From positions 14,464,501 to 14,528,500 of the forward strand of contig NC_092569.1 of the NCBI RefSeq assembly GCF_037975245.1: 64,000 nt of DNA, given 5' to 3'. The stretch comes from Apostichopus japonicus. Taxonomy: Eukaryota; Echinodermata; Holothuroidea; Aspidochirotida; Stichopodidae. This document shows positions 8,188-49,993 of this stretch, piece by piece. Numbering within the stretch: the stretch's first letter is position 1; each line of letters begins with the position of its first letter. Under the pieces are notes generated by a model. It saw only the letters and a list, made by a program, of their open reading frames with translations, was not told where the DNA came from and did not search any database. A program made the translations under genes and the position numbers.

Positions 8188-8376
8188 ATCGCTTCTCGGC
8201 CTTTTGGCTAAGATCATGTGTAGTATCTGTTCCCTTAGGGAATGGTGATACACACCTGACGATGATCACACAGTCACAGTCCCGATGCAAGGGGACTGGG
8301 GCTGAGAGCGGATCAGTCGTTTGGTAGTTTGGTTTTCGTGCCCAGGTTCTTTCCTGGGTGACTTTTTCTTAAAAAG
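8188..8376 (+). mobile_element. SINE-like element with U2 snRNA 5' head
   Basis: The first 45 nt (8188-8232) match the 5' end of U2 snRNA with a single difference, including the conserved CTTCTCGGCCTTTTGGCTAA and the branch-point-pairing GTAGTA. After position 45 the U2 sequence stops abruptly. The remaining 140 nt instead resemble a second locus at 36.0-36.19 kb: CTAAGGG/CTTAGGG, GTGATAC, ATGATCACA, GCAAGGGGAC, and a 3' hairpin CCCAGG-TTCTTT-CCTGGG followed by GTGACTT...AAAAAG. The flanks share TATATTATATT (8175-8185 and 8377-8387), a possible target duplication, though in simple-sequence context. Snc-RNA-headed SINEs with U1 or U2 heads (SINEU) are known from crocodilians; I know of none here. 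Confidence 0.75.
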
Positions 8377-41832: not shown

Positions 41833-42097
41833 GTACTGTATTAATCAAAGAAAACATTTATGCAAAAGATTTTGAAAAATCTATAGAACATTAACTCATT
41901 ATTACAATTTACCAGTTCCACGTAAATAAAAATTCTGTTACTTCACATGGAAATGTACTGAAAAATTGTTCCATACATAAAGTGAAAAAAGTTGGTTTAA
42001 CTGCGATCTGCTTCCTCCTCTCTTGGCCTTTTGCGGCAGTAACTACGTAATGAACTGATTGCCTTGGAACTTGCAACCATCAAGGACAAAACATTGT

Positions 42098-42439
42098 ATA
42101 ACAGAGAGCATTTTACTGTTATCACAAGAGATCATCCACACTGTAACCTCCAGTGTAACTTTCTACAACCAAAACCCTACACCTGTTTGTGCACCTTTTA
42201 TTATGTAATCTTCAGCAGGATGTGTGGTTAGCTTCACACTAGCTTAACCACTGTTTATGTAGACAGAGTAACATCCTGTCCCATCCTCTTGTAATCCATT
42301 GTAAAAGAGTATATAAGATGCAACTTTCACCATTTGTATTTAGTAGCATACATCCAGCCAAGGAAGATACAATATACTCTGCATTAAACTCAACTACTTG
42401 TTTGTGCCTTTATTTTCTTGTTCATATACCGCTGTGACA
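42098..42439 (+). repeat. 5' LTR
   Basis: 342 bp from ATAACAGAG to GCTGTGACA. The T at 42097 could belong to the LTR instead, which would make the duplication 4 bp (ATTG). Compared with the 3' LTR it has 15 extra bases, TAACCTCCAGTGTAA at 42144-42158. Confidence 0.95.
42310..42317 (+). promoter_or_regulatory. LTR TATA box
   Basis: TATATAAG in the 5' LTR, with an ATTAAA poly(A)-like hexamer about 70 bp downstream (42383-42388), a normal U3/R arrangement. Confidence 0.65.
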
Positions 42440-42462
42440 ATTTGGTGGAGGAGCAAAAATTC
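42440..42462 (+). other. Primer-binding region
   Basis: Directly after the LTR, ATTTGGTGGAGGAGC; the TGGTGGAGGAGC part could pair with a tRNA 3' end reading GCTCCTCCACCA. The tRNA is not identified. Confidence 0.55.
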
Positions 42463-42478
42463 CTATTTTAAGTTTTAC

Positions 42479-43480
42479 ATGACACGTTCTCCGTATTTCC
42501 TTCGTTCATCTACTCGTTTCACAATGGCTTCAACTGTTCCAGCAATTGCACCCACCCCTTATCATGGGTTATCTACAGAAAATGCCAAGCGTTGGCTGGC
42601 TCGCTTAACCCAGTTTGTAACACTTAAAGGCTGTAAAGATGAAGATGCCTTAGCTATGTTTGGACTACTCCTTAGAGATTCTGCTTTGGATTGGTTTACT
42701 TGTCTTGATGACTCTGTCAGGAAAGACTTCACACAAGTCAAAGCTGCGTTTTTGTTACGCTTTCAGGATGTGGTGCCCACTTGGCAAAGACTAAGCTCGT
42801 TTTTTACAGCTAAACAGGAACCAACTGAAACTGTTAACGATTTTACATCTAGGATGAGCATGAGGGGTTCAGATCTATCTCTCTCGTCAGAACAAATTGT
42901 CCAGGCTACTCTGGCAGGCCTACTTTCCCACATCAGGCCCTTTGTCCTACAAAAAGACCCTACCACTGTCGAGGAAATACGTAGGGCGGCAAACCAACTC
43001 GCCACTTCTGTGGATTCGTCACGACAGGAAGAAGTGTTGATGGCTGTCCAAGGATTAGCAGACCAACTCCAACAGCTAACCACAACCCAGGAGAGCTTTG
43101 CAGATCGGTTACATTCCCTATCCACTACGGTAAATGCAGCCTCACTGGACCAGTCTCACAGTGGAAGGAGAGGTCAACCACCACCATCTCCGCAAAAACA
43201 GGGGAGACGGACCTGGCAGAAATCTTCCCCTCCATCACAGGATGGCCCGAGTCCTTGGCATCGTCAACCATCACAGACACAGCGTGCTTGTTCTGGGTGT
43301 GGTGAGTACGGTCACTTAAGGTCTTATTGTCATGCTCAAGATCTTAGCTGTTACAACTGTGGTAAACTAGGACATATAGCTCGAGTATGTAGGTCTGGCC
43401 GTTATGTACCCCCCTTTTACCCAACCAACCCCTTCCTCCAATCTTCTGGGCAGCACCAGAATGATCAACAGCCCCAATAG
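42479..43480 (+). CDS. LTR retrotransposon Gag
   Basis: 333-residue capsid/nucleocapsid precursor. I take ATG 42479 because the earlier in-frame ATG at 42398 is inside the LTR. The N-terminal two-thirds is a retrotransposon gag domain (DWFTCLDDSVRKDFTQVKAA, RFQDVVPTWQRL, residues about 80-160). The C-terminal part is Gln/Ser/Pro-rich with two CCHC zinc knuckles, CSGCGEYGHLRSYC (about 271-284) and CYNCGKLGHIARVC (about 291-304). The ORF ends at TAG 43478-43480, immediately followed in the same frame by pol. Confidence 0.93.
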   Translation: MTRSPYFLRSSTRFTMASTVPAIAPTPYHGLSTENAKRWLARLTQFVTLKGCKDEDALAMFGLLLRDSALDWFTCLDDSVRKDFTQVKAAFLLRFQDVVPTWQRLSSFFTAKQEPTETVNDFTSRMSMRGSDLSLSSEQIVQATLAGLLSHIRPFVLQKDPTTVEEIRRAANQLATSVDSSRQEEVLMAVQGLADQLQQLTTTQESFADRLHSLSTTVNAASLDQSHSGRRGQPPPSPQKQGRRTWQKSSPPSQDGPSPWHRQPSQTQRACSGCGEYGHLRSYCHAQDLSCYNCGKLGHIARVCRSGRYVPPFYPTNPFLQSSGQHQNDQQPQ

Positions 43481-43489
43481 CAATTACTG
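43472..43489 (+). promoter_or_regulatory. Candidate stop-codon readthrough site between gag and pol
   Basis: The gag stop reads CAA-TAG-CAA-TTA, the tobamovirus-type context UAG-CAR-YYA that promotes efficient readthrough. gag and pol share one frame, and pol has no in-frame AUG until about codon 156 after the stop, beyond the protease active site. Both facts point to a Gag-Pol fusion made by suppression. Confidence 0.75.
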
Positions 43490-46400
43490 TCACACAGGCC
43501 CTCCTCCCCTGTGAATAGTTACTGTTGTGAGGCATCTTGTAGGGACTCTGTAGCAGCCATTTCTGCCACGCCCTCTGTGACTTTAGTGACCCCACTTCAA
43601 AAGAATTTGGTTAATGTGTCCCTAAATGGTTGTACTTCTAAAGCCCTTGTTGACACAGGAGCTTCCATTTCTTGTATATCTCTGTCTCTCATACAGAGAT
43701 CTTGTATTCTCAAAGTGTCTACACTTGGTGACTCTACCATTAGTCATATTAAAGGGGTGTGTGGTGAAACTCACACTGTTCTTGGGACAATCAATCTGCC
43801 TGTTACTATTAACAAGCTGTGCTTATATCAGACATTCTATGTATTTCAAAGACTGCACCACCCACTTATACTAGGTCTAGATTTTCTAACGACAAATAAG
43901 GCTTCCATTGATCTTCACAACCATTGCCTATCTCTTCATGATGGTATGACCGAAGTGTCTTTCCTTCAGGCTGATCGTGAACGACATGAAGTTATAAGAT
44001 TGCAGACTTCAGTTACTGTCCCAGCAAAAACTGAAGTTATTTGCCCTGTTAAGGTTATTAACCCTGACTTTTCCCATAGTGTTTGCCTTTTAGAGCCAGC
44101 ATCGTCTTTAGCTAGTAAGTTCAATATTTTCACGGCCAGGTCTGTATGCTCAGTTGCCAATTCTAGTGTTATTGTTAAGCTTATGAATCCCACTAATTCT
44201 GCTGTGTGTATTCCTGTCAATACTACCGTTGCTTATGCACATGAATATGAGGACATTCGTGACTTTTCGGGTTCTGAGCCTGATCTGTCCGACTTTAATA
44301 TTTCGTCATTGTTCGATAAGACTTCTCCTGATGATGATGACCAATACGTCACCTTAGCTCAGGATATGGGTATAAATTTAGCAACTTCTGATCTCTCTGA
44401 GGTACAACAACGAGAGCTTCTTATTTTAATCGGCAAGAACCGTGATGTTTTTGCCACTGACCTGTCTGAACTTGGTGAAACTAATCTTTACCATCACAAT
44501 ATTGATACAGGGAGTGCACCTCCCCAACGACAGCGTTTTTACCGCACGACCCCTAAAATCAAAGACGAAATTGAAAAACAAGTCAATGATATGCTGCAAA
44601 ATGGTATAATTGAGCCCAGCATTTCAGAGTGGCAGAGTCCTGTTGTTCTGGTCAAGAAAAAAGATGGCAGTTACAGGTTTGCTGTCGATTATAGGAAACT
44701 CAATAGCGTTACTAGGCCAATGCACTTTCCCTTACCTCTATTGGAGGATGTTTTTGATGCGGTGGGTGAATCTGAAGCACAAATCTTTTCTGTGCTAGAC
44801 CTCTTTTCAGGGTTTTGGCAAGTCCCTATGGACCCTGACTCAAAACATAAGGCTGCATTTGTGACTCATCATGGGGTCTACCAATGGAAAAAGCTCCCAT
44901 TTGGCTTAATGAATGCACCTGCCTCATTTCAATTGGTCATGGCAGAAGTACTAAGAGGCTTGAATTGGAAACATGCTCTTGTGTATGTTGATGACATCCT
45001 TATTCTAAGCAAAAATTTTCAGGATCATTTAGACCATCTTCAGGATGTTTTTCACCGCCTCCGAACTGCCAATATGAGACTCAAACCTTCTAAATGTGAC
45101 TTTGCTGCACAGAAAGTTACTTATTTAGGACATGTCATCACAAAAGATGGCGTTCAGGCTGATCCCTCTAAAACTGAGGCCATTTCTCAATTTCCTTGTC
45201 CTCGGGATGTCTCTACTTTACGAGGTTTCCTTGGCCTTTGTAATTATTACCGTAGATTCGTACACGGTTTTGCCAAAATTGCTGCCCCACTAAACAACCT
45301 CCTAAAAAAGGATGTTCCCTTCACCTGGTCTAAACAATGTGAAGATGCCTTCGAAAGTCTCAAACATGCTTTAACCACCCCACCCATACTAGCTTATCCT
45401 AGTATGTCTAAACCTTTCATTGTTTCAACTGATGCCTCAGGGAGTGCCATCGGTTATATTCTTGGACAGCGTGATAGTTGTAACAGGGAACGTGTGATTG
45501 CCTATGGCGGACGATCTCTTAACAAAATGGAAAAGAAATGGTCTATATCAGAAAGAGAGTGCCTTGCTCTTATTGAAGCAATTCAGTCATTCCGTCCGTA
45601 CTTAGCTAACAACAAATTTACTGTTTTGACTGATCATATAGCTCTTAAGTGGTTACATAAAATTTCACATGCGACTAATGGTCGTTTAGCTAGGTGGTCT
45701 ATAGCGCTTCAAGGGTATGATTTCACTATTGAACACAAGGCAGGAAAACTACACCAAAATGCAGATGCCCTTTCTAGGAGAAGCTATGATTCACAACAAA
45801 TTCCATCAAAGGCTGAGGGAATGTGCATTGAACAAACTAAGACCAGTCACCTTGATCAGGATACCACTGTAGAATATCACATTGAATATGCTAGCAATCC
45901 TAGTGTACCTTCTGTAGGAGCTGTTTCAGAGAAGCCAGATATTGATCCTGTGGCTGTTAAATCATTTCAGAGGGAGTGCTCAGACTTTTCTTATTTGGTT
46001 AAGTATTTAGAAACAGGTGAGCTACCTGAGGACCAGAAAGTAGCTAAAAAAGTTGTTGTTGAAGCTGAACAATATGTGTGTCTTGATGGCACTCTTTATC
46101 ATTTATTTTACCGTCGAGCTAAAAATCTTTCACAGGCGGATAGGGTAATTAAGCAACTAGCTGTGCCTAAGGTCCTTCGACCTGACGTTTTATTGTCATA
46201 TCATGACTCTATTGCGGGAGGGGGTCATCAAGGGTTTGATCGAACTTATCATTCGATTCGTTTAAAGTACTATTGGCCAAGAATGTATTCAGATATTTAT
46301 GATTACGTTAAATCATGTGATGCCTGTCAAAGAGCTAAACGTCATTTTCATGGCCACCCTGCCCCACTGCACCCAATGCCTGTTGAGGATGCATTTAAAC

Positions 46401-47566
46401 GGTGGCATATGGACATCCTTGGTCCACTTACCACCAGTTCAGACGGTCACAAGTATGTATTATTAGTTACAGACAGTTTTACTCGTTGGCCAGAAGCTTT
46501 TCCTCTTAAGTCTCAGGAAGCAACTGTCATTGCACAAGTATTGTACAAAGAAATTTTCTGTCGTTATGGTGCACCACATACCCTTATCTCAGATCGTGGA
46601 AAAAATTTCATGTCAAAGTTAATTCAAGCATTGTGTGAGTTGTTTGACATCACCCGTCACCATACTAGTTCCTATCACCCACAGACTAATTCGACATGTG
46701 AGAGGTTTAACTCAGTTATTGCACAATCCATGAGAGCCTATTGTGGGGGAAACGATTCCAAATGGCCAGATATGCTACCTGGTATTTTAATGGCTTATCG
46801 TATGTCCCCTGCGATCAACTCAACCCAATTTTCACCTTACTTTCTTTTGTTTGGTAAGGATATGCGTACTCCCTTGGATGTTAGTTTACACCCTACTGAC
46901 ACCATGGGTAGAGATGCAAAAGAGCATATCACTTCTGTTATGGACAAGTTAGACACCTTTCGTAAGGTTGCAAAGGAAAACATTGTTCAGGCACAACACA
47001 AGAACAAACAAACTTATGATGCTAATGCCAAGGAACCATCATTTCATTTGGGACAAAGTGTACTAGTTTTTAACCCTCAAGTACCACAGGGCCATTCGAC
47101 CAAATTACATCGTAAATGGTGTGGGCCATATTATGTCTGTGAGTTAGGTCCTAATGACACCTTCAAACTCAGGAATTGCTCTGATAACAAGGAATTGCAA
47201 TCTCTGGTTCATGCCAATCGGCTGAAGCCCTATCATGACCCGAGGGACAGGAAAGTGCCTACTGTGCCACACCCTACCCTGTCTTCTGAAACTAAAACAC
47301 TTCCTGGGACTAGTCCTACTGGAGCTTCCCAAGAAACCCAACATATAAGAGAACAAAGTTCATGGAAAGATGTTGATCGAATTCTTCAGGCACGTAAATA
47401 TAATGGTGCTATGTATTACAAAGTTAAGTGGGCAGATAAAACACCATCTTCATGGGTTCTTAGTGGGGATTTATCTTCTAATCTTATTAGAGAATATCAC
47501 ATCACCCGTACTCTGCAAGGCAGAAAACGTAAACGTCCATTGAAACGACATAAGTTCTTCATTTAG
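43481..47566 (+). CDS. LTR retrotransposon Pol (PR-RT-RH-IN)
   Basis: 1361 codons after the gag stop, numbered here from the first one. Aspartic protease ALVDTGASISCIS (Asp 58). Reverse transcriptase with SPVVLVKKKDGSYRFAVDYR, LDLFSGFWQ and catalytic YVDD (502-505). RNase H with STDASGSAIG (Asp 651), SERECLALIEA and VLTDHIALKWL. Integrase zinc finger H2C2 from about 908 (HDSIAGGGHQG...SCDACQ), core WHMDILGPL (Asp 978), ISDRGKNF (Asp 1038), YHPQTNSTCERFN (Glu 1074), spacing D-x35-E. Then GPY/F at about 1215 (KWCGPYYV) and a chromodomain-like tail 1295-1345 (VDRILQARKYNGAMYYKVKW, SWVLSGDL) ending in a basic stretch. All key residues are present, so the enzyme set looks functional. The apparent start at 43511 is a GTG with no support as an initiator. 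Confidence 0.95.
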   Translation, partial: QLLSHRPSSPVNSYCCEASCRDSVAAISATPSVTLVTPLQKNLVNVSLNGCTSKALVDTGASISCISLSLIQRSCILKVSTLGDSTISHIKGVCGETHTVLGTINLPVTINKLCLYQTFYVFQRLHHPLILGLDFLTTNKASIDLHNHCLSLHDGMTEVSFLQADRERHEVIRLQTSVTVPAKTEVICPVKVINPDFSHSVCLLEPASSLASKFNIFTARSVCSVANSSVIVKLMNPTNSAVCIPVNTTVAYAHEYEDIRDFSGSEPDLSDFNISSLFDKTSPDDDDQYVTLAQDMGINLATSDLSEVQQRELLILIGKNRDVFATDLSELGETNLYHHNIDTGSAPPQRQRFYRTTPKIKDEIEKQVNDMLQNGIIEPSISEWQSPVVLVKKKDGSYRFAVDYRKLNSVTRPMHFPLPLLEDVFDAVGESEAQIFSVLDLFSGFWQVPMDPDSKHKAAFVTHHGVYQWKKLPFGLMNAPASFQLVMAEVLRGLNWKHALVYVDDILILSKNFQDHLDHLQDVFHRLRTANMRLKPSKCDFAAQKVTYLGHVITKDGVQADPSKTEAISQFPCPRDVSTLRGFLGLCNYYRRFVHGFAKIAAPLNNLLKKDVPFTWSKQCEDAFESLKHALTTPPILAYPSMSKPFIVSTDASGSAIGYILGQRDSCNRERVIAYGGRSLNKMEKKWSISERECLALIEAIQSFRPYLANNKFTVLTDHIALKWLHKISHATNGRLARWSIALQGYDFTIEHKAGKLHQNADALSRRSYDSQQIPSKAEGMCIEQTKTSHLDQDTTVEYHIEYASNPSVPSVGAVSEKPDIDPVAVKSFQRECSDFSYLVKYLETGELPEDQKVAKKVVVEAEQYVCLDGTLYHLFYRRAKNLSQADRVIKQLAVPKVLRPDVLLSYHDSIAGGGHQGFDRTYHSIRLKYYWPRMYSDIYDYVKSCDACQRAKRHFHGHPAPLHPMPVEDAFKRWHMDILGPLTTSSDGHKYVLLVTDSFTRWPEAFPLKSQEATVIAQVLYKEIFCRYGAPHTLISDRGKNFMSKLIQALCELFDITRHHTSSYHPQTNSTCERFNSVIAQSMRAYCGGNDSKWPDMLPGILMAYRMSPAINSTQFSPYFLLFGKDMRTPLDVSLHPTDTMGRDAKEHITSVMDKLDTFRKVAKENIVQAQHKNKQTYDANAKEPSFHLGQSVLVFNPQVPQGHSTKLHRKWCGPYYVCELGPNDTFKLRNCSDNKELQSLVHANRLKPYHDPRDRKVPTVPHPTLSSETKTLPGTSPTGASQETQHIREQSSWKDVDRILQARKYNGAMYYKVKWADKTPSSWVLSGDLSSNLIREYHITRTLQGRKRKRPLKRHKFFI

Positions 47567-48136
47567 AAATACTGTGTACTATTAAAGTTGATCGTGTAAA
47601 CAAATATGGTTAGTCTGTTGCTTCCATATTTATCAGACTCTACGAGTAAACCTTCTTTCCATGTCAAAGGCTTTTTCATTGTTTATAATATATTCATTCC
47701 TTTGTTTTATATCTTGAGCATGACATTATTTTAACAGTATGTGACCGTACTGCCACAATTTTCTATTTTGATAATCATTGATACATTGCTTTTGTTTTTT
47801 AATGTTGTGACAGTAAATGTATGTCATTATGTTCTTTCAGGTTTTCCTGTAATTTTTTTTTTTTCTTGCCTTTGTCGACAACATTTATAGATGTATATGT
47901 TATTATCATTTGTTTTTTTTCTCAAACAGTGAGACATTACTGGTCATGTTTCTTTTATTGAGTTTCATCACTATTTTCATATATCAATGGTTCACCTTAC
48001 CTTTGAAATTACATTCGAGCATTTTATATACGTTTTTGTTAACGTATTCTGTAAGGACTTTTACTTTCTGCAATTCTTAGTGTTTGCTGTTTCTTCATTC
48101 TTTCTTTTCCTTTCACATTTGGGGACCAAACTTTTT
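47567..48136 (+). other. Retrotransposon 3' untranslated interior
   Basis: About 570 bp, T-rich, between the pol stop and the polypurine tract. No env-like frame with signal and membrane anchor. Confidence 0.75.
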
Positions 48137-48146
48137 AAGGGAGAGG
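48137..48146 (+). other. Polypurine tract
   Basis: AAGGGAGAGG, five bases before the 3' LTR; the expected plus-strand primer. Confidence 0.7.
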
Positions 48147-48151
48147 CAATT

Positions 48152-48478
48152 ATAACAGAGAGCATTTTACTGTTATCACAAGAGATCATCCACACTGCTT
48201 TCTACAACCAAAACCCTACACCTGTTTGTGCACCTTTTATTATGTAATCTTCAGCAGGATGTGTGGTTAGCTTCACACTAGCTTAACCACTGTTTATGTA
48301 GACAGAGTAACATCCTGTCCCATCCTCTTGTAATCCATTGTAAAAGAGTATATAAGATGCAACTTTCACCATTTGTATTTAGTAGCATACATCCAGCCAA
48401 GGAAGATACAATATACTCTGCATTAAACTCAACTACTTGTTTGTGCCTTTATTTTCTTGTTCATATACCGCTGTGACA
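48152..48478 (+). repeat. 3' LTR
   Basis: 327 bp, by eye identical to the 5' LTR apart from lacking 15 bp near its left third. Confidence 0.95.
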
Positions 48479-49993
48479 ATTGTGCCCAATATCCAAGCAT
48501 GGTATCTCTGTTTAGTTTTTGGTGCCTTGTCACTTTGGATGGTCTTTGAGCTGCCACATAATCACCACAATGTTCTTAAGCATTCCTGATGGGCACTAGT
48601 CATACCTTGAGAAAAAGAAATGGCCAAAGTGTAAGCAAATTAACATTATGTTTTAATTTACATGTAGGCCTACTTTTACTTCCCACATAAAATCAATGTT
48701 TTTTTCCAAATGGGTCAATAAACTTATTGAATAAAACAGAAGGAAATCTTTCTTTTGGGCATCAATGGTACTTGATACTTATACTATTGCTTTTCTTTAT
48801 TTTTCTTTTTTCGTTTTCGACCTGTGTAAGCCGAATCTCCTATTGTGGACAATACCTTCAAATTCAATTCAATCAATGCAGTGATGTAACACTGTGGCCC
48901 AGTGCAGTCAGTTCTTTGTAGTACCGTAAGAGACATAAATACAGTAGGTTGATATTTTATAGCACAATTGCAGTTCAATCCAATGCATCTGGTTTGCAAT
49001 GGAATCTACCTAAACTCCTACTTTATGAACATTTTCAAGGAGCCAATATAGTCAGGACAGGAGCATGCACATAACTATTTAGAAAATTATCCATATTTTC
49101 AATGGCCTTGGGCTTAGAGCCTGCATGGATTTGTATTTTTTATTTACTGGTGTGTGGGTCACATTGCCACAGTAGCAACTACACCGGCCTACACATGGTC
49201 TATGTTATGTAACTTAATCTGCTAGGCCCAATCTAGCCCAGGGCATGAACCACAAAAATATTAGGCCAATCGAATAAATATAAGTCAAGCAATCGAACAG
49301 AGATTCTTCTTTTGTTGGATACTGACCCAGGGTTACTGACAATGTAAAGACTTAATGTAGCCCTTGAATCTCAGTTAAGTGTTCACAACATGTCTTACAA
49401 TAAGTTTTTTCATTCACACTTGAGATTGGCCAAGCAAGGGACTAGTATTATTCATATTATAAGCCAAGGCTCTCGACCCTAACAGTGACACTTATTATAA
49501 ATTAGGCCTAGCCTATGGCCAGTGGACTACAATTTTAACCCTCATGAAATGGGCTAATGGTCATTTATTTTAAGCATCATTATTAGAATCACTTTAAAAA
49601 CAATTACTCTTGGACTGCATCCGTGTCATTGTGCAAGTTATCACAGACGCCATTTTGTGCAACCTGTAATTTCGGCAGTCAGAGTGAAAATACATAGCAA
49701 ATTCTAAGTCGAATAGCATTTTCGTACATACCCGTACACTATCCTGTCGTTGTACACTGTGAACAATAGGTCGTCCTAAGCACATAACACGATGGTTTTC
49801 AATCCGGAGATGTCCGGAAAGCGAGAAAATACGCGAAAAACAGGGCAGTTTTTCGGTCGAAGTCAATAAAATCTGAATCTTGAAAAACAAGGCTAACTCA
49901 GTGCATGTTTCGTGCAAACATATCGGGTTTCTTTTAGACCAAAGATATAGCTTTTAGCGTTGGACTTAATCAGATTTTAATCTCGAAGCTGTC

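Follow-up and report, generated by a model that had tools for sequence, protein, structure and literature searches.

A putative tobamovirus-type UAG readthrough signal between gag and pol of a Ty3/gypsy retrotransposon in an echinoderm genome

The window, i.e. the whole stretch of 64,000 nucleotides that was analysed, carries a Ty3/gypsy LTR retrotransposon at positions 42097-48478, the host of which is probably Apostichopus japonicus. The features of the element are as follows:

42093..42096, no strand: left target-site duplication ATTG, with the right copy at 48479-48482
42097..42439, + strand: 5' LTR of 343 nt, repeated at 48151-48478 and also present at the five other full copies, where the flanks differ
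42443..42454, + strand: probable primer-binding site, labelled from its position only, beginning with TGG just inside the 5' LTR
42479..43480, + strand: gag ORF including the stop TAG, with a capsid-like domain, two CCHC knuckles and in-frame ATGs at 42479 and 42524
43475..43486, + strand: CAA-TAG-CAA-TTA, a type I readthrough context, identical in seven of the eight genomic junctions found
43481..47566, + strand: pol ORF of 1361 codons with protease, RT, RNase H, integrase and a weak chromodomain
43486..43519, + strand: possible small hairpin, beginning 5 nt past the stop (-9.4 kcal/mol)
48151..48478, + strand: 3' LTR of 328 nt, without 15 nt that are present in the other 11 LTRs compared

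The element shows the features of the Ty3/gypsy group, namely LTRs with a target-site duplication, a gag with capsid domain and CCHC knuckle (Pfam matches Retrotrans_gag and CCHC, both upstream of the TAG) and a pol in the order protease, RT, RNase H, integrase. Among sequences of solved structures, Ty3 was the best match. The Pfam Chromo match at the C-terminus of the integrase, which would mark the chromovirus branch, is weak (E 0.0024; 18.2 bits, below the cut-off of 25.1). A comparison of the two LTRs revealed no substitution over all 328 shared positions, and the 15 nt missing from the 3' LTR are present in the 5' LTR as well as in all ten LTRs from the five further copies. No tRNA genes were found within the 64 kb, and a Pfam search of three other ORFs found no domain. 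An Rfam match to U2 spliceosomal RNA at 8188-8271 (+ strand, 53.3 bits) covers 84 nt of the 192-nt model and is therefore probably a shortened pseudogene. Used as a query of the genome, the LTR gave 43 matches, 12 of which are the LTRs of the six full copies. Ten of the 43 span only LTR positions 29-277, with the same two end points and 94-96% identity (for example C3:25543988-25544237 and C1:15549305-15549554); these are perhaps a separate short repeat built from the LTR of the element.

The gag and pol frames are separated by a TAG at 43478-43480 within CCC-CAA-TAG-CAA-TTA-CTG, which is the only stop in the common frame between 42347 and the TAG that ends pol at 47564-47566. Pol has its first in-frame ATG at residue 156, while the protease motif DTGAS is found at residue 58 and thus before any ATG. 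Hence three statements of an earlier reading, which had been made from the sequence only, were borne out: gag and pol lie in one frame, otherwise clean, with a single TAG between them; no in-frame ATG precedes the protease motif; and the element is young, as judged from the LTRs without substitution, apart from the 15 nt missing in the 3' LTR. An annotated A. japonicus protein of 333 aa (P0121) is 99% identical to the window gag and ends at the same residue, but may stem from another assembly's version of one of the six copies and is hence not independent evidence. The assignment of the host to this sea cucumber is based on the 99% identity.

The stop is followed by CAATTA, which agrees with the type I motif of UAG and CARYYA, and the frame behind it stays open for 1361 codons. 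From the base composition, the chance of CARYYA after a given stop was calculated as 0.0023; the hexamer was counted at 6 of the 1679 in-frame codon positions of gag-pol and after 7 of the 1694 TAGs on both strands of the window, so that the overall chance amounts to about 0.002-0.004. In the 671.6 Mb assembly, the 12-mer occurs at 196 sites compared to 129 for its reversed control. Accordingly, the 12-mer is no rarity in itself, and its significance lies in its position.

Other recoding signals at the junction were also considered. Between 43301 and 43660 no slippery heptamer was found in the -1 register, and pol of the window lies in the same frame as gag. Nested folds of 74-121 nt around the stop were no better than those of shuffled sequences (z of -0.17, 0.86 and -0.55) in a test that covered nested folds as opposed to pseudoknots, while the 60 nt ending in the stop gave a z of -2.02. 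For the 35-nt stretch just past the stop, 8 of 1000 simple shuffles were as stable, and so were 128 of the 5007 stretches of the element, for which reason the hairpin at 43486-43519 was set aside as a functional part. Read by eye, its pairing shows one break in the diverged copy L019.

Copies of the element were searched with 360 nt around the junction as DNA query, the counts being lower bounds. At least eight places were found, six with 99-100% identity and two diverged (L019 and L020, which are not counted among the full copies); a query of 1008 nt from pol gave the same eight places. Each of the six full copies has its own 4-nt target duplication, perfect in four cases and with one mismatch in two, and the five other full copies match the window from the LTR onwards. 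Based on these two observations, the six full copies are independent insertions. Within the LTR pairs of the five copies other than that of the window, 0, 0, 1, 1 and 1 differences were counted. At the junction, the 12 bases CAATAGCAATTA are identical in all six full copies in spite of their different target sites, and no full copy differs from the window anywhere within 43460-43500. The copy in the window thus does not owe its stop to a private mutation. The pol frame comprises 1361 codons in four of the six, and 1048 and 520 codons in the other two. A shortened frame was observed in L025 and an extra stop in pol at 45041 in L026. With CAATAGCAATTA in every full copy and an intact pol in four, the stop-bearing elements are the ones that moved. 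As evidence of a constraint on the hexamer, however, sequences as similar as these six do not suffice.

The two diverged copies give different pictures. The identity between L019 and the window amounts to 92% across 913 nt of gag and 81% across 150 nt of pol, and L019 contains stops inside gag. It keeps the stop and the hexamer in CAATAGCAATTA within an unchanged run of 34 nt, for which a permutation of the mismatches gave p = 0.05 in this one copy; the stop is not covered by the longest such run, which measures 63 nt, starts at 43347 and belongs to gag. There is thus a weak indication that the hexamer is more conserved than its flanks. Among the differences between L019 and the window, 51 of 96 are nonsynonymous compared to 74% expected (p = 1e-5). 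Judged by this synonymous bias, the two lineages appear to have split at least partly under coding constraint. L020, on the other hand, is a degenerate, gapped fossil with 72-74% identity to the window, and its junction reads CCCCAATTGAACAATTGCTG, which is 2 nt longer, comprises no stop in the gag frame and has a changed hexamer. The sequence-only reading had named a sense codon in other copies as one observation that would speak against a recoding signal; it is absent from the six full copies and L019, all with the same 12 bases, whereas the fossil L020, the one exception among the eight junctions, has no stop there. On the other observation named, a CAATTA that varies freely, the copies point neither way.

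Selection on the frames was assessed by counting changes among five copies, and among four for the last third of pol. Owing to indels that shift the register, L026 was left out altogether and L025 from the last third. In pol, the stop-bearing copies showed 18 synonymous and 22 nonsynonymous changes and no new stop, corresponding to a dN/dS of about 0.41 (p = 0.005). The first two thirds gave a synonymous to nonsynonymous ratio of 16:15 (p = 0.002, rising to 0.005 if transitions are weighted more heavily); no selection signal was seen in the last third (2:7), and gag alone did not reach significance (5:8, p = 0.24). The synonymous bias, which resembles purifying selection and rests on 40 changes, suggests that the pol behind the stop was probably used as a protein in the spreading lineage.

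A different arrangement was observed in other Ty3/gypsy families of the same genome. Beyond the six copies, a protease query gave loci of 26-41% identity, the best-scoring one with 30%. The survey comprised the 24 top-scoring of the 105 other matches of this query (L027-L050), eight loci picked by hand from the same list and two (L072, L073) of the 20 examined from a gag search, the other 18 having been left out as no protease motif was found in them. Among these 34 sampled loci, 31 have pol in the -1 frame, which is not a count of independent events as the loci are copies of few families, and none has an in-frame stop between gag and pol. GGGAAAC or TTTAAAC in register was found in 8 of 16 representatives examined, with GGGAAAC at the junction of L096, L098, L100, L102, L103 and L042 and TTTAAAC at that of L027 and L073. 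In 7 of the 18 loci left out, the frame stays open as far as the piece extends, and these may be single-ORF families.

The window family appears, from its protein identities, to be closer to proteins from other sources than to these host loci. Among the matches listed, pol shows 45% identity to such proteins in its first 420 residues, and its RT up to 62%, compared to 35-48% for the host loci. In the RT tree, six host loci stand across a starred branch from the window element, the placement of which is not firm, since no starred set holds it; L042 forms a long and unsure branch. A search of genome contigs for relatives gave four distant loci with 32-37% identity in bacterial MAG records, and a search of viral contigs gave none. 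Three Ty3/gypsy pol proteins (P0010, P0082, P0100) are filed under bacterial MAG names (Sedimenticola, Thiodiazotropha) and are probably animal host DNA in symbiont bins.

Three other explanations for the production of Pol have to be weighed against readthrough. A spliced RNA without the stop could yield Pol, and a donor-like GGTGAGTAC is indeed present at 43301 in the gag zinc knuckle, from where P0123, a gene model of A. japonicus, connects gag directly with the RT at about 44513. However, this join removes the protease together with the stop and cannot give a protease-bearing Gag-Pol; it may also be an artefact of gene prediction, P0122 and P0123 being partial or chimeric models. As splicing would furthermore leave the type I context unexplained, it is considered unlikely. 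Still less likely is a separate start of Pol, by reinitiation or at a non-AUG codon just past the gag stop. A CTG codon directly follows CAATTA, and nearly all of the pol proteins of relatives that were inspected (120 of 1845) start with Met, many of them shortly before the protease, although gene callers choose ATG starts, so that these say nothing on the expression of pol. Against such a start stands that the earliest ATG in the pol frame of the window, residue 156, is located past the protease motif.

The least probable of the three is that the stop is a disabling mutation, propagated by copies for which other elements provided Pol in trans. With six full copies found, the family is small, and its members are near-identical, so one founder could have carried the stop; the fossil L020 lacks it. 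Contrary to this, four copies have an intact pol, and the changes in the frame past the TAG are biased towards synonymous ones. The older L019 also carries the stop, not one of the six full copies is without it, and its location is precisely the boundary of gag and pol, in a leaky context.

Altogether, type I UAG readthrough of the tobamovirus class, as used by tobacco mosaic virus, yielding Gag-Pol, is considered the likely best explanation, based on the combination of a family-wide stop, a pol that varies as if selected and the type I motif. Gag would be made by termination at the UAG, while a fraction of the ribosomes would decode the UAG via a near-cognate tRNA and continue in frame to Gag-Pol. 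The following CAAUUA and the preceding CAA would favour this decoding, and the ratio of Gag to Gag-Pol would be set by readthrough, where other families of the same genome appear to use -1 frameshifting. We infer for this element the readthrough, its rate, the tRNA and the hexamer as the only signal needed. The leaky UAG proposed in the sequence-only reading thus gains from the same three observations, the motif being an exact type I motif, while a conservation of CAATTA above its flanks, which had been named as support, is not clear. The wider claim, that an animal Ty3/gypsy lineage relies on a bare type I UAG signal, the same as in tobamoviruses, as the sole determinant of its Gag to Gag-Pol ratio, while the other families sampled from this genome mostly use -1 frameshifting, is favoured to a lesser degree, at somewhat better than even chances.

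Among the known systems, Providence virus is an insect virus, the suppressed stop of the soybean element SIRE1 lies in a CARYYA context, and OPRL1, used in a readthrough reporter, is a mammalian gene. According to PMC3542737, type I readthrough is defined by UAG-CAR-YYA and takes the form A-UAG-CAA-UUA in tobamoviruses, for which no structure is described as required. The window element shares with them the UAG, the CAAUUA after it and the A before it; there, the signal lies in the replicase of a plant RNA virus, here, as a putative signal, in gag-pol of an echinoderm LTR retrotransposon. The replicase gene of Providence virus, likewise an RNA virus, is listed in the same source with the type I motif UAG-CAA-CUA, and CARYYA in the OPRL1 setting is reported to give about 15% readthrough, very similar for UGA and UAG (PMC4132726). 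Based on these two cases, a type I signal would be expected to work in animal cells. By calling the signal plant-virus-like, the sequence-only reading had thus made it appear odder than it is.

Stop codons also occur in other retroelements. The fission-yeast Ty3/gypsy elements Tj1, Tosmo1-3 and Tcry1 are described as having a single in-frame stop between gag and pol, which share their frame, and for Tj1 a pol without AUG and a need of the stop for transposition are reported (PMC10085805, PMC4600332). They differ from the window element in their UGA, its GAA-TGA-CT context and their fungal hosts. SIRE1 is reported as an LTR retrotransposon with stop codon suppression (PMC2194720, PMC2829016), but belongs to Ty1/copia of a plant and has its stop between pol and an envelope-like gene. 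Gammaretroviruses (MuLV) share the in-frame UAG between gag and pol; they are assigned to type III, with UAG-G and a compact pseudoknot (PMC3542737), whereas C follows the stop in the window and no nested fold stands out as significant. The frameshifting families of the same genome also have gag and pol as separate ORFs, but their pol is in the -1 frame and generally overlaps gag. A survey of 2003, as cited in PMC5009743, counted pol in -1 in 28 of 51 animal elements and in +1 in two. In our literature search, which covered mostly open-access papers and is weak evidence, no animal LTR retrotransposon with a type I stop at gag-pol was found. The precedents of the OPRL1 reporter, Providence virus, the fungal UGA elements and SIRE1 lower the novelty.

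If readthrough holds true, animal Ty3/gypsy elements would have another route to Gag-Pol, the third after frameshifting and a fused ORF, and a short tobamovirus-type signal could serve an animal element without a pseudoknot. It would also constitute a natural UAG readthrough site in an echinoderm, and one genome comprising both modes would allow their direct comparison.
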